NCBI RefSeq assembly: GCF_014646875.1
Contig: NZ_BMOC01000010.1
Coordinates: 1 to 64,000 of the forward strand
Reading direction: 5' to 3'
Origin: Halobellus salinus
GTDB lineage: Archaea; Halobacteriota; Halobacteria; Halobacteriales; Haloferacaceae
DNA length: 64,000 nt
The notes beneath the pieces were generated by a model. The model was not told the DNA's origin. It saw only the letters and a program-made list of their open reading frames with translations, and made no database searches. Shown here piece after piece: positions 45,739 through 51,781 of this stretch (its first letter is position 1; each line of letters begins with the position of its first letter). Position numbers and translations under genes: made by a program.

Positions 45739-46131
45739 GTGGGCGCTCTTCAACTCGCCCTTCTGATTGTTGGATTGCCAGTAATAATGCTTGGATTACA
45801 CGAAATAACGCACCTAGCAGCCGCTCGGACGCTATCTCCTGTTTCGGTTGACATCGTTTCATACGTCCCATTCCGATTGCAGGTTGGTTTTGACCATCCC
45901 GTTAGCCAGCGTAGATGCCGACTCGTTGCACTTGCCCCGCTGTTTGTCGGAATTATAGTTGTGGTTGTCGCTACCCAAAGCGGATTGTGGAAACGACTCC
46001 AAAATATCGGCCCGTATTACTTACACTATCTTGTTGGGATCAATTGGTTGTTGTATACCTCACCAAGCCCTGCTGACCTTCGATCAGCCCTAGTTACTCC
46101 CGAAATGCCAGCAAACGGAGGTGCGGGTTGA
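45739..46131 (+). CDS. Membrane HExxH (zincin-like) protein
   Basis: The 130-residue protein has a first hydrophobic helix that runs into HEITHLAAART, an HExxH metal motif at about residues 21-25. A second helix CRLVALAPLFVGIIVVVVA follows, then a third hydrophobic stretch near LHYLVGINWLL. An HExxH inside a membrane segment with a following LAP-type helix is the layout of small intramembrane or DUF3267-type zincin peptidases. The activity is inferred only. Codons are AT-rich relative to neighbours. The end overlaps the pilin-like gene by 11 bp, so the pair is cotranscribed. GTG start. Confidence 0.6.
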   Translation: MGALQLALLIVGLPVIMLGLHEITHLAAARTLSPVSVDIVSYVPFRLQVGFDHPVSQRRCRLVALAPLFVGIIVVVVATQSGLWKRLQNIGPYYLHYLVGINWLLYTSPSPADLRSALVTPEMPANGGAG

Positions 46132-47527
46132 GGTGACAAAATCCCCATCTGACTCAGTACTTCGTCAAGATGATCGGGGGGTAGCACCGCTTATTGGATT
46201 TATCATACTTTTCGGTTTTTTTATTATCGCACTCTCAAGCTACCAAGCATATATAATTCCCCAGCAAAACAGCGAGGTGGAATTCCAGCACTTCGAAGAA
46301 GTGCGGAATGATATGATCGAAGTCCGGAGTTCGATTTCCACGGCCGGACAAGCAGACGTTTCCCAATTTCCGACAGTGAAACTCGGGACATATTATCCGA
46401 CGCGTGTGGTCACGGTCAATCCCCCTCCACCGTCTGGGACCTTGCGAACGAGCCAACCGTATAATATCAGTATAACGAATCAAACTGGCGCCGATCCAAA
46501 GACTGTGTCAACCCGTTTTCTTAAATACCAGAATGGATACAATGAAATGCGCATTGGGTCACTATGGTACGAACATTCTGTTCTCTATCTCGATGAGCGA
46601 AGCATGGGCGGAGAAATAGTAATTTATCAAGATCAGAACATTGTCTCCGGAAATGAGGAAGCGCGTGTAACCGCATTACAAAACGAATTTCGCGTCTCAT
46701 CAAGCGGTAGGGTAACAGTAAATCTGTATCCAACCGAGAACGCTAGTATAACCACCAGCGATTTAACCGGGGATATAACGGTCAAAGTACCCAGCCGATT
46801 GAATGGGTCCACGTATTGGGATGAGGCGATTGATACAACCGAATCGGATAACCTGTCGTATGAGGGAACCGAGTCATACCCTGGAGAATCAGACATTTAC
46901 TGGGTGGTTCTGACTGTCGAGGCCGACGCACTCAATTTCAACACCGTTGGAATAAATTCGGCGCCCGAACGTCAAGAGTCAGCACGTCAAGGAGTGGGTA
47001 CTGGGAGTAGTGAGAGTACCACTGGGGAGGGAGATTCAACTCCAGCACCAGCTCAACCCATAAGTGAGGGTGTGAGCATCGTTAGTGGCTCAACCCCAAG
47101 CGGTGAGTCGCCGTTCCTTGATTTCAAACTCAAGGCTGAGGATGGAGCTTATGCAGATATTGTGAGTTTCGAAGTAACAAAGCCAGGCAATCAGAATAAT
47201 GTTGATCCCATTAATAGTTTACAAAGAACCGGGAACGAGGAAGAGGTGGAGTTAGACCCTACGGTCACTACAGGAAATAATCAAGCCGGCGATTGGAACG
47301 GAAAATATAATATTGGTACTGATGGAGCGGAATCACTAGACACGACTGCTATTTTTGAAGACGGAACTGAAATTGATGTGTTAATGGGTGAATTGAACAA
47401 AGGGAATGTGAAGAGCACCTACGACTTAGTCAACAGCGAGTCGAACTCTGACATTACTGTCATCTTTTATTTTTCAGACGGTAGTAAGCTTGAAGTATAT
47501 CTGAGAGTGTCTAAGCTAAATACGTGA
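46121..47527 (+). CDS. Type IV pilin-like / archaeal surface protein
   Basis: The 468 residues begin with a short charged leader, then DDRGVAPLIGFIILFGFFIIALSSYQAYIIPQQN. This looks like an archaeal prepilin signal: a charged residue pair before a long hydrophobic helix, as in haloarchaeal DUF7289-type secreted proteins. The remainder is a beta-rich Ser/Thr/Asn-rich ectodomain with many NxS/T sites and a Thr/Gly-rich linker around 285-315. Codon use is AT-rich. The TGA stop sits in a tnpB-element right end. A role in surface structure or adhesion is inferred. Confidence 0.65.
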   Translation: MRVEVTKSPSDSVLRQDDRGVAPLIGFIILFGFFIIALSSYQAYIIPQQNSEVEFQHFEEVRNDMIEVRSSISTAGQADVSQFPTVKLGTYYPTRVVTVNPPPPSGTLRTSQPYNISITNQTGADPKTVSTRFLKYQNGYNEMRIGSLWYEHSVLYLDERSMGGEIVIYQDQNIVSGNEEARVTALQNEFRVSSSGRVTVNLYPTENASITTSDLTGDITVKVPSRLNGSTYWDEAIDTTESDNLSYEGTESYPGESDIYWVVLTVEADALNFNTVGINSAPERQESARQGVGTGSSESTTGEGDSTPAPAQPISEGVSIVSGSTPSGESPFLDFKLKAEDGAYADIVSFEVTKPGNQNNVDPINSLQRTGNEEEVELDPTVTTGNNQAGDWNGKYNIGTDGAESLDTTAIFEDGTEIDVLMGELNKGNVKSTYDLVNSESNSDITVIFYFSDGSKLEVYLRVSKLNT

Positions 47528-47764
47528 ACCGCCTCGGGGTCAAGCCCCGTGGCATTCGCCTTGAACAGCCTGTAAATTGCCTCGGGGTCGAGTGGTTCGA
47601 GAGGGTTCGTCGGGTACCTCACTGCAGTCATCCCACCGTTCTCGGATGTAGTATCGGCCGACGTTCCACAGTTTGGACGCGGAGAACCCGTACTGGTTGA
47701 GGTCGTCACGAACCTGTGAGTGGTTCGTGATGCGTGCAACGTAGGTGCGGGTTGTCTCTAGCAT
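47525..47764 (-). pseudogene. tnpB: tnpB deletion derivative with right end
   Basis: From the ATG at 47764 the frame reads MLETTRTYVARITNHSQVRDDLNQ and GFSASKLWNVGRYYIRERWDD, the normal N-terminal section of haloarchaeal TnpB. It then passes directly into the right-end hairpin (47531-47553), so the whole RuvC and zinc-finger part is missing. The right end ends ggttca. It is a non-autonomous remnant. Confidence 0.75.
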
Positions 47765-47865
47765 CGAACTGGCTTCATAATACATTACGAGAACATAAGT
47801 GCTAGAAACTAACGACCGAGCGTTGAATGTCAAGTTGGAGTGGCGTCGGTAGAGTGACAGTCAGA

Positions 47866-47906
47866 GTGTCGGATTCATCTCGCGGCTAAAGCCGCGGGTA
47901 TTCTCC
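47866..47906 (-). mobile_element. Solo right end of a second IS1341-type family
   Basis: The hairpin CGCGGC-TAAA-GCCGCG at 47881-47896 with flanks gaatac and gatgaatcc (minus-strand reading) resembles a third right-end type, distinct from the CCTCGGGG form. No tnpB lies upstream of it. It sits 100 bp from the tnpB deletion derivative. Confidence 0.5.
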
Positions 47907-48283
47907 TCGTTCTTTATAAGCGCCTCTACACCGGCTGCGGAGTACGGAGAAAGCGGCCTCGGGATGGACTCGCTGGGGTTTCGTCACATCGTGTGAAAGA
48001 ACTGGTTAAATCTCCACGTTGTCTGGCGGTTCGATTGATACGAGAAGCCGTTTCTTTTTACAACTTGCTCAGATCTGATCGCTAAGGTTTTTTGAGCCGA
48101 AGGGTTCGTTCAATTGGACGACAGGCTGAACAGCGGCAGCATCATACCGTATCACGTAACAGCGGCTTGTGTCGCTCCGGGTCGCCGCAAGCCAGATCTT
48201 GATGCGGGCACTCTCGCTGTTGTCTTTCAGCCTGAGGTGTGGATAGTAGATAGGGTTATCAGTTGAAAATTGTATAGTAGCTT
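47907..48283. other. Spacer before the LOV receptor gene, AT-rich
   Basis: No gene is found. A tttataagcg box at 47913-47922 and a ttaaatc stretch at 48006 could be promoters. A T run (cgctaaggttttttgagcc) near 48085 looks like terminator-type sequence. The base composition stays lower in GC than the core genome. Confidence 0.35.
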
Positions 48284-51200
48284 ATGATCATATTTGACAA
48301 CTTCAGCACAACCCACTATCTGCTCATTATCCTATTTCTGGCCATCTCTATCGGCTGCTTCGTCGGTGCTGCCCGCGGATCGCGCTTGCAGGGGAGAGAT
48401 ACGCAGCTTGGGCTTAGAGCAGTACTCATCACGAACGGATTGTGGTTAAGCTTCCAAGTGTTCGGATTGGTGACCACCGACGGGGGCCTGAGTAGTGTCT
48501 TCTACATTGGCGGTCTGATCTGTGGCCTCACCGGTGTCGGCGCGTGGGTGTACTTCGTTTCCGCGTACACCGGCCGGTCGTACCACCGCGACCGACGCTA
48601 TCGCGCGCTCGCCGTCAGCATCTACGTTGGGCTCATCGGGGTTAAGCTCACGAACCCGTTGTACGGGCTGTACGTCTCAACGGAACTGCAACAGAGTCCG
48701 TACCCTCACCTCGTCGTTGAGCCGCAACTGTTCTACTGGGTCTCGTTTTCACTCACCTACACCCTCGTGGCGATCAGTTTCTACTGGCTGATACAGACGT
48801 TCCGCAAGTCGTCGTCTCCGACCGTAGGGCTCGGCGCACTCGCGGTCCTCTCGCTGTCGCCGGTTGTGCCACGTGCCGCCATCCAAGCGCTCCCCAACGA
48901 GATACTTCCACCCCTAATCCTGGGATTAAGCTTCGAACCGGTCGGTGTAACCGCATTCCTACTGGGGGTACTGGTGACTGTCGAAGAGCCGTTCCGCCAG
49001 GTTGAGCAGTCTGCTCGCTCAAAGTTCTTCGAAGAGGCCGACGACGCCACGTTCGTGTACGACACCGGCGGCAAGCTCGTCGAAATGAATAATCAGGCCC
49101 AGAAGCTGCAGTCGGAGATCGGCGTTGAATGCCCAACCGTCGAGACCTTTGAGCAGGCGTTCAGACCTGTTGGTGACGGCTTCGATAGCGAAGACACATT
49201 CACTGTTGACATCGACGGGTCCACCCGGTATTTCGAGGTGATAGCTAATCGGATGACTGCCGGCGCTGAAACCGTCGGGTTGGTCGCCAGCGTTCGAGAT
49301 GTCACCGAGCGTCAGTCCCGGAAGCGGGAACTCGAACTGAAAGAACGCGCGATGGACGAAGCGAGTGTGGGGATCACGATCAGCGATCCGACCCAAGAGG
49401 ACAACCCGCTGATCTACGTCAACGATGGGTTCGTCGATCAGACCGGGTACAACCGCGCGGAAGTCCTCGGCCGAAACTGCCGGTTCCTGCAGGGAGATGA
49501 TAGAGACCAGCCCGCGCTTGATGATCTCCGTGAGGCAATCACCAGTAACGAACCCATAACCGTTGAGCTCCGAAACTACCGGAAGGACGGTGAGCAGTTC
49601 TGGAACCGCCTCTCGGTGGCCCCGATCTACGACGAGGCTGGCGAGTTAGTGAATCACGTCGGGATCCAACAGGACGTGACAGCGGTGCGGGAGAGCCAAC
49701 GCGAGCTGCAGGCAGAGCGCGAACGGTTCGAGTTGTTGATCGAGAGTACCGACGAGTACGCCTTCCTTGTCGTTGACGAGGACGGCGCGATTTCGACATG
49801 GAACGACGGCGCAGCGAACCTCTTCGGGTATGACGATGAAACCGCAGTGGGGATGCCGATGGGTGAACTTCACCCTGCGCCAGACCGCGAGGCGGGACTG
49901 CCGGACCGCCTGCTTCAGCAGGCCCGGTACGCCGGCGAGGCCAGCGACGAGGGGTGGCGCGTGCGGGCCGACGGCTCTGAGTTCTACGCTGATGTCCGTT
50001 ATGCCGCTCTGGAAGGTGACGACGGCGACTCAAAGGGGTACGCTCAGATCGTTCGTGATATGACGGACGAACGTCAACAACGACGGCGGACTGAACGCTT
50101 CGTTGAGGAATCGGAAGACGTGGTGACCATCGTTGACCCCGACGGAACCATCACCTATGCCAGCCGGTCGTCGGACCGGGTTCTCGGGTATGAACACGAG
50201 GCCCTCACAAAGAAGAACCTCTTCGACCAGTTACATCCGGACGATCGTACCCAAGCGATGGAAGCGTTCTTCAATGGTACCGAGGATCCTGAAGCGACGT
50301 TCCAGATCGACTGCCGGTTCCAGTCGAACGATGGCGCGTGGCGTGAGATGGAGCTTCGGTGTCGGAATATGCTTGACGATGACGCCATCGATGGGATGCT
50401 CTTGTATCTCCGTGACGTGACGGCAACGAAGGCACGGACGCGCCGGTTGGAAGCCCTGTTTAACGGCACGTTCAGCTTCGCTGGGCTGTTGGAACCGGAC
50501 GGAACGGTACTCAATGCCAACGACGCCGCACTTGAGTTCGGCGGGTTTGACCGCAAGGAGATTATTGGTGAGCCGTTCGACGAGGCATCGTGGTGGACTC
50601 ACTCGACGGCAGTACAGGAGCGACTTCGTGACGCGCTCGACACGGCGGCCACCGGAGAGTTTGTGCGGTACGAGACGGACGTTCGTGGAGTTTCGGGGCT
50701 TGCAACCATCGATTTTTCAGCGAAGCCGGTCACGAACGACGCTGGTGAAGTGACCCTGCTCGTCGTCGAGGGCCGAGAGATCACGGACCAGCGCCGCCAA
50801 CGACAGCAGATGGCGATGGTGCAACGGGTGATGCGACACAATATGCGAAACGATCTCAACAAGGTACGCGGGTGGACACAGGTGCTTGCAGAGGAAGTAG
50901 ACGCCGATGCGAGGGCCGCACATCTCGACCGGATCGAGACGATACTTGACGGGTGGGAAGCAATGACCGAAGGGATGAGACAGATCCGGCAACTCACCAA
51001 CTCCTCTGAGGACCAGTGGCCAGCTATCGACGTGCGGTCAGTCACAGAGTACCTGACAGCGTGGAACCAAGAAACTGAGTTCACTCTCGACGTAGACTCA
51101 ACCGTGTCAGATGACCAGACCGTATGGATCCCTGGTGCGGTCAAGGAAGCACTGGAAAAGTTGATCACGATCGCAGTCCGCCGGGCGACGGATTCGGATA

Positions 51201-51472
51201 CCGGGGTTACGGTGTCATTATCGGATACGACTGACAGGTGGGTTGAGGTTGAGATATTCATTACCGGATCCGGGTTGGCTGAGACGGATACGGAAGTACT
51301 CGCCACCGGAGAAGAGACAGCACTTACACACGCACAGGGACTCGACATCTGGGTTGTTAGAACGATGATCAAAACGGTTGGGGGTGAGATAACAGCACAG
51401 GCGACGGGCACGAAGACACGCGTCAAGTTCAGAGTTCCAGTACAACAGCCACCGGACGCCGACGAGAAATGA
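48284..51472 (+). CDS. 7TM-LOV-PAS sensor with degenerate histidine-kinase domain
   Basis: The 1062-residue protein has an N-terminal membrane region of about seven helices (10-235), then a PAS domain. A LOV domain at about 355-470 has the flavin-binding motif GRNCRFLQGDD, with the photoactive Cys at 399 and the supporting DQPALDDLR. Two or three further PAS domains (480-600, 605-715, 720-835) follow. The dimerisation box RHNMRNDLN carries His852. The ATPase part is unusual: the N-box Asn is replaced (EALEKLITIAV), the DxGxG box reads ITGSGL, and the second Gly box reads GLDIW. ATP binding is doubtful, so it may signal by other means. Confidence 0.8.
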   Translation: MIIFDNFSTTHYLLIILFLAISIGCFVGAARGSRLQGRDTQLGLRAVLITNGLWLSFQVFGLVTTDGGLSSVFYIGGLICGLTGVGAWVYFVSAYTGRSYHRDRRYRALAVSIYVGLIGVKLTNPLYGLYVSTELQQSPYPHLVVEPQLFYWVSFSLTYTLVAISFYWLIQTFRKSSSPTVGLGALAVLSLSPVVPRAAIQALPNEILPPLILGLSFEPVGVTAFLLGVLVTVEEPFRQVEQSARSKFFEEADDATFVYDTGGKLVEMNNQAQKLQSEIGVECPTVETFEQAFRPVGDGFDSEDTFTVDIDGSTRYFEVIANRMTAGAETVGLVASVRDVTERQSRKRELELKERAMDEASVGITISDPTQEDNPLIYVNDGFVDQTGYNRAEVLGRNCRFLQGDDRDQPALDDLREAITSNEPITVELRNYRKDGEQFWNRLSVAPIYDEAGELVNHVGIQQDVTAVRESQRELQAERERFELLIESTDEYAFLVVDEDGAISTWNDGAANLFGYDDETAVGMPMGELHPAPDREAGLPDRLLQQARYAGEASDEGWRVRADGSEFYADVRYAALEGDDGDSKGYAQIVRDMTDERQQRRRTERFVEESEDVVTIVDPDGTITYASRSSDRVLGYEHEALTKKNLFDQLHPDDRTQAMEAFFNGTEDPEATFQIDCRFQSNDGAWREMELRCRNMLDDDAIDGMLLYLRDVTATKARTRRLEALFNGTFSFAGLLEPDGTVLNANDAALEFGGFDRKEIIGEPFDEASWWTHSTAVQERLRDALDTAATGEFVRYETDVRGVSGLATIDFSAKPVTNDAGEVTLLVVEGREITDQRRQRQQMAMVQRVMRHNMRNDLNKVRGWTQVLAEEVDADARAAHLDRIETILDGWEAMTEGMRQIRQLTNSSEDQWPAIDVRSVTEYLTAWNQETEFTLDVDSTVSDDQTVWIPGAVKEALEKLITIAVRRATDSDTGVTVSLSDTTDRWVEVEIFITGSGLAETDTEVLATGEETALTHAQGLDIWVVRTMIKTVGGEITAQATGTKTRVKFRVPVQQPPDADEK

Positions 51473-51709
51473 TCTCCGTCCGCCGAGTGGCTGGGTTGTT
51501 CACCTGTGGATGGATCAAAGTCACCCACCCGGCTGTAGGGACCATTTCGTTAGATTGTACTGACCGATGGACGATTGAGTATCTCTCTGACTCCCTGTGT
51601 TGAATCTACGAATCGGAAGCCAGCGGGTACTCCTGGTACGAATCATCACGAACTCTCCAGCAAATCCAATATAAAACGACCGCCGCTGTCCGACGATTCG
51701 AAACTTAAG

Positions 51710-51781
51710 TGGACTCGCTGGGATTTGAACCCAGGGCCTCTTCCTTGCGAAGGAAGCGATCTACCGCTGATCTACGAGCCC
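51710..51781 (-). tRNA. tRNA-Ala (anticodon CGC)
   Basis: Read on the minus strand, the acceptor stem GGGCTCG/CGAGTCC (with one G-T pair) closes the cloverleaf. The anticodon arm CTTCC-TTCGCAA-GGAAG gives anticodon CGC, which reads alanine GCG codons. The T arm has GGTTCAAATCC. The discriminator is A and CCA is not encoded. Confidence 0.95.

Follow-up and report, generated by a model that had tools for sequence, protein, structure and literature searches.

How might a light-sensing transmitter signal if the kinase module at its C terminus lacks its ATP-holding residues? This question is raised by a gene in a 64,000-nucleotide stretch of the Halobellus salinus genome (contig NZ_BMOC01000010.1), the whole of which is referred to here as the window. 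The gene (48284..51472, + strand) begins with ATG and runs as a single open frame with zero internal stops, encoding 1062 residues in the order 7TM-PAS-LOV-PAS-PAS-PAS-DHp-CA, the CA domain being degenerate. Pfam detects five PAS stretches in the protein and places a HisKA_7TM membrane region (PF16927; 42.5 bits against a cut-off of 28.6) over residues 15-201 (48326..48886, +), where hydrophobic segments are also found. Three PAS domains occupy residues 476-838 (49709..50797, +; PAS_9 matches at 49760-50068, 50120-50425 and 50489-50788). This arrangement agrees with a sequence-only reading of the locus, which had placed a LOV domain between a 7TM region and several PAS domains.

The LOV domain (residues 346-475; 49319..49708, +) finds its best PDB match in the LOV domain of B. 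subtilis YtvA (130 bits, E 5e-37). Its motif GRNCRFLQ, residues 396-403, fits the GXNCRFLQ pattern, and alignment with YtvA Cys62 puts the adduct cysteine at Cys399 (49478..49480, +), exactly where the earlier reading had numbered a canonical photoadduct site. N374 is present, Asn398, Arg400 and Gln403 agree with flavin-site residues of YtvA, and N431, N441 and Q462 align with YtvA N94, N104 and Q123, the flavin-contact Asn/Asn/Gln on the beta strands; all YtvA flavin-site residues checked are present. The domain reads as a canonical LOV input, and would be expected to respond to light. The same genome holds three further LOV domains with NCRFLQ, at loci L003 (G000:C4:128276-128566), L004 and L001.

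The DHp helices (residues 839-915; 50798..51028, +), recognized from alignment, structure prediction and codon models that reject omega=1, contain the intact phosphoacceptor box RHNMRNDLN, as the earlier reading had noted, with the phosphoacceptor at His852 (50837..50839, +). Residues were counted across 60 other homologous DHp-bearing kinases, from its own and related genomes; this His is present in 60/60 of them and in 5/5 degenerate proteins. The CA (ATPase) domain (residues 916-1054; 51029..51445, +) gives only a weak HATPase_c match (residues 953-1054, 30.9 bits against a cut-off of 26.4), and aligns to active haloarchaeal homologues with zero gaps. Relative to these homologues, E959/N963 of the N box are K959/I963, D993 of the G1 box is I993, and G1017/G1021 of the G2 box are A1017/D1021. 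Ile963 (51170..51172, +) replaces the Mg/ATP-binding Asn found in 59/60 relatives, Ile993 (51260..51262, +) the adenine-binding Asp of 58/60, and Asp1021 (51344..51346, +) the last G2 Gly, which is invariant (60/60). No intact N box or Asp was found in another register: the alignment is gap-free and residues 955-972 contain zero Asn. The ungapped alignment with active kinases and the counts in relatives thus bear out the claim that the N-box Asn, the Asp of the DxGxG box (here ITGSGL) and the second Gly box (GLDIW) are altered. A frameshift or assembly artefact was excluded by the ungapped alignment and by the same losses in an independent assembly of another genus.

Because these ATP contacts (Asn, Asp, Gly) are lost, autokinase activity is unlikely, and the CA domain should not autophosphorylate. 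The protein has the His of an active HisKA kinase and lacks its N-box Asn, G1 Asp (DxGxG) and G2 Gly; loss of catalytic residues within a homologous DHp-CA fold characterizes pseudo-histidine kinases, and a degenerate ATPase with a retained His characterizes DHp-type phosphotransferases. By sequence, the protein is a pseudo-histidine kinase with a LOV input; a few bacterial pseudokinases are known already. AlphaFold2 modeling of residues 836-1062 (19-sequence alignment) yields a DHp hairpin and an alpha/beta CA sandwich with a pLDDT of 85.2, alongside 81.4 for an intact orthologue modeled as a control, and Foldseek matches the model to histidine kinase cores (HK853), DivL and ChpT. Since the alignment consists mostly of active relatives, the model speaks to fold compatibility, not to pocket detail, and is not independent evidence of a closed pocket; the degenerate CA domain is nevertheless predicted to keep its fold.

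The closest full-length orthologue (L067/L038), from Halorubrum sp. MAG LUM.57, shares 71% identity over its full length and has its boxes at the same places, reading LVAIAI (N), VTGSEL (G1) and GLDVW (G2), with Ile at the N-box Asn, Val at the G1 Asp and the equivalent of Asp1021 at G2. Seven more orthologues with the 7TM-LOV architecture, from Natronomonas, Halorubrum and others (61-64% identity), are intact. As this pair shares the losses and the seven others lack them, the loss is derived and inherited. Phylogenetically, the H. salinus protein and L067 are sisters (100% support). Their degenerate kinase cores are likewise united with 100% support; the stem leading to them is long, at 0.68 substitutions per site, and they fall next to the Natronomonas orthologues with a support of only 66%. 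A distant source for the kinase module is unsupported, the core lying on a long branch yet within its own subfamily. A search of 394 order-level, 171 own-family, 148 other-family and 294 class-level genomes, samples that overlap, and of PLSDB plasmids turned up no further LOV protein with the losses. Exact matches to the pattern GLD[IV]W are confined to the two known genomes; a third hit reads GLG. The LOV version is rare, with two members found.

Several observations concern the orthologues themselves. One Halorubrum orthologue sits on a plasmid record. The 7TM-LOV front half also occurs, at 70-75% identity, in shorter frames of 601 aa (L111, genome G418) and 512 aa (L044, genome G344), the former adjoining a different kinase core; domain shuffling likely accounts for these frames. 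The intact Natronomonas aquatica orthologue is flanked by a DICT-domain protein and a REC-PAS-histidine kinase hybrid (L069:4942-8057), which are possible partners in that species.

We wrote a codon branch model contrasting the two degenerate branches with the rest. The CA dN/dS is 0.232 on the degenerate branches vs 0.226 elsewhere, among active orthologues, and constraining omega to 1 lowers the log likelihood by 15.1 units (2dlnL 30.2). For the DHp domain the degenerate pair gives 0.193 (2dlnL 24.1 against omega=1), and pairwise values between the H. salinus protein and L067 agree (CA 0.22, DHp 0.19). These values are approximate because synonymous sites are near saturation between the two, though the rejection of neutrality is still strong. 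Both degenerate CA and DHp have been kept under purifying selection after the loss, and pseudogene decay is rejected by the codon models. A second genus keeps the altered form under selection; the protein therefore probably signals without being a kinase. The LOV residues, the losses common to an orthologue of another genus, the predicted fold and purifying selection together lend good support to the earlier proposal of a putative blue-light pseudokinase.

Degeneration of this kind has a counterpart within the same genus. Three Halobellus genomes (G060, G436, G437) encode a GAF/multi-PAS protein of about 1130-1260 aa with a degenerate core and no LOV motif, in which the N-box Asn is His/Asp, the G1 Asp is Ala and the G2 Gly is Ser/Thr; Pfam detects no HATPase_c in the one protein of this clade scanned. 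The LOV-less clade (100% support) lies elsewhere in the tree from the LOV pair, and its CA domain is under purifying selection (dN/dS 0.23, 2dlnL 64). All five degenerate proteins keep His852, Asn853 (+1), Arg855 (+3) and Asn856 (+4). The LOV-less genes lie at L118:2945-6685 (G060) and L119/L120 (G436, G437); at L118 the gene stands between ABC-transporter and DUF5305 genes, and the flanking ORFs at L120 (390 and 352 aa) have the same lengths as those at L118. The H. salinus genome also encodes a 573-aa kinase (L035, G000:C14:69771-70085) with Leu at the N-box Asn, Ser at the G1 Asp and an intact G2 box, a candidate further pseudokinase. Comparisons inside this genome were made on individually retrieved loci.

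The gene has a GC3 of 0.70 vs 0.82-0.91 in identified housekeeping neighbors, and two ORFs beside it have 0.43-0.44. It belongs to a low-GC3 block (45739-51472, 0.43-0.70) that lies between translation genes and adjoins a tRNA-Ala gene (51709-51781, -), probably an acquired island. Within this block, a 468-aa ORF (46121-47527) has a pilin-like N terminus w/o a Pfam match, and a short ORF (47540-47833, -) resembles the N terminus of an IS605-type TnpB, a remnant; intact copies of TnpB lie beside the orthologues at L067 (4516-5805) and L069 (12201-13550). The neighboring genes checked include neither a response regulator nor a partner kinase, and the neighborhood is not conserved: when the flanks were compared by blastn with the loci of the orthologues, essentially only the gene itself and a TnpB piece matched.

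To our knowledge, only a handful of bacteria have yielded pseudo-histidine kinases, and archaeal LOV signaling has barely been studied. ChpT and Spo0B, two of the proteins most pertinent here, are not known to have a sensor domain. PhyT/PhyP of alphaproteobacteria, ChpT and Spo0B resemble the H. salinus protein in being histidine kinase-derived, with the DHp His kept and the ATPase degenerate, and PhyT, with its degenerated ATPase domain, acts as a phosphotransferase via His341 (PMC5898713). ChpT is also a Foldseek match of the modeled core. The group differs in having the HWE HRxxN box, in contrast to the HisKA-like RHNxRN box found here, and PhyT has a putative periplasmic sensor whereas the archaeal protein has a 7TM-LOV-PAS sensor. 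Archaeal proteins with HisKA but no HATPase combine sensor domains with a DHp domain that has the His; they are predicted non-kinases in which, as Galperin and colleagues suggested, that His is still used (PMC5847659). These are mostly from Archaeoglobi/Methanomicrobia and lack a recognizable HATPase, whereas the H. salinus protein retains the HATPase fold with altered boxes and senses through LOV. Haloarchaeal LOV histidine kinases such as ALovD-1 of Halonotius, for which LOV photochemistry was demonstrated, likewise join LOV, PAS and a C-terminal kinase module, although the passages of that report consulted mention no degenerate kinase module (PMC12202551).

On balance, we favor a LOV-gated pseudo-histidine kinase that acts through its DHp helix as an in-trans phosphoacceptor or phosphotransferase, resembling PhyT/ChpT. 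In the LOV domain, blue light would join the flavin to Cys399 as an adduct; from there the signal would travel along the three PAS domains and the coiled linkers until it reached the DHp helices, as LOV and histidine kinase biology suggests. The CA domain, with its fold kept but the Mg/ATP Asn, adenine-binding Asp and lid Gly gone, would not support autophosphorylation. If the protein has no kinase activity of its own, its output would therefore run via the face of the DHp dimer on which His852 and Asn856 are retained. His852 would most likely be phosphorylated in trans, either by a partner kinase with which the protein forms a mixed dimer or by a receiver that already carries phosphate; the phosphoryl group would then be passed on or removed in a light-dependent manner, as PhyT, ChpT and Spo0B do without light. 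The H box was kept in two independent lineages that lost three ATP boxes, a pattern suggesting continued use of the DHp His; by analogy, phosphotransfer may be its role. The earlier reading had proposed signaling through a partner kinase or by conformational change. Given that two independent degenerate clades retain His852/Asn856, a role that depends on the His, as phosphoacceptor, phosphotransferase or phosphatase, is no less likely than that purely conformational one; the retention of His852 could instead reflect a shared docking surface for a response regulator or partner.

The main rival, which we regard as less probable but quite possible, is that the protein pairs with an active multi-PAS kinase of its own subfamily and changes its partner's kinase/phosphatase activity in response to light, its own His staying unphosphorylated, as in RocA or DivL. 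RocA of group A Streptococcus, in which we know of no LOV domain, is also a membrane pseudo-histidine kinase, and is comparable by role in working through CovS. It acts beside this active kinase, repressing CovS phosphatase activity (PMC7380576). DivL, which is likewise a pseudo-histidine kinase with several PAS domains and keeps the DHp-CA fold, binds ATP weakly and acts without kinase activity (PMC4211667). Candidate partners exist: the H. salinus genome has an intact paralogue (G000:C6, 1490 aa, 42% identity over PAS-DHp-CA), and G339, home of the other degenerate protein, also has one (1557 aa). However, DivL replaced its His and kept the N/G1/G2 boxes, the reverse of the situation here, where every degenerate protein conserves the His and its neighboring residues. 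The data fit either a phosphotransferase-like protein or an allosteric partner and do not decide between them. That the protein is still an active kinase with unusual ATP binding appears improbable: the preserved overall fold and lid residues (GEE, His1016 and Trp1023) speak for it, but both LOV members lack the Asn, Asp and Gly of three distinct ATP boxes, and these boxes have kept changing from one member to the other (ITGSGL vs VTGSEL; LITIA vs LVAIA). Slightly less credible still is drift in a kinase gained by horizontal transfer and no longer in use; the depressed GC3, the mobile setting with its adjoining tRNA gene and TnpB remnant, and the rarity of the LOV version would suit such decay, which is opposed by a frame of 3.2 kb that stays intact in both genera (71% identity) and by selection on DHp and CA since the loss.

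Automatic annotation will label this gene a histidine kinase. The literature searched, with subscription journals mostly outside its scope, contained no archaeal LOV pseudo-histidine kinase. More broadly, and tentatively, the protein may represent a photoreceptor gating a histidine phosphotransferase/phosphatase, in which blue light would control in-trans phosphoryl flow via a DHp His in an archaeon, within one haloarchaeal multi-PAS kinase subfamily where ATP binding would have been lost at least two times, with LOV and without it. The degenerate LOV protein and the seven intact orthologues of the same architecture form a natural test pair for what becomes of a transmitter after ATP-binding loss, with light as the switch.
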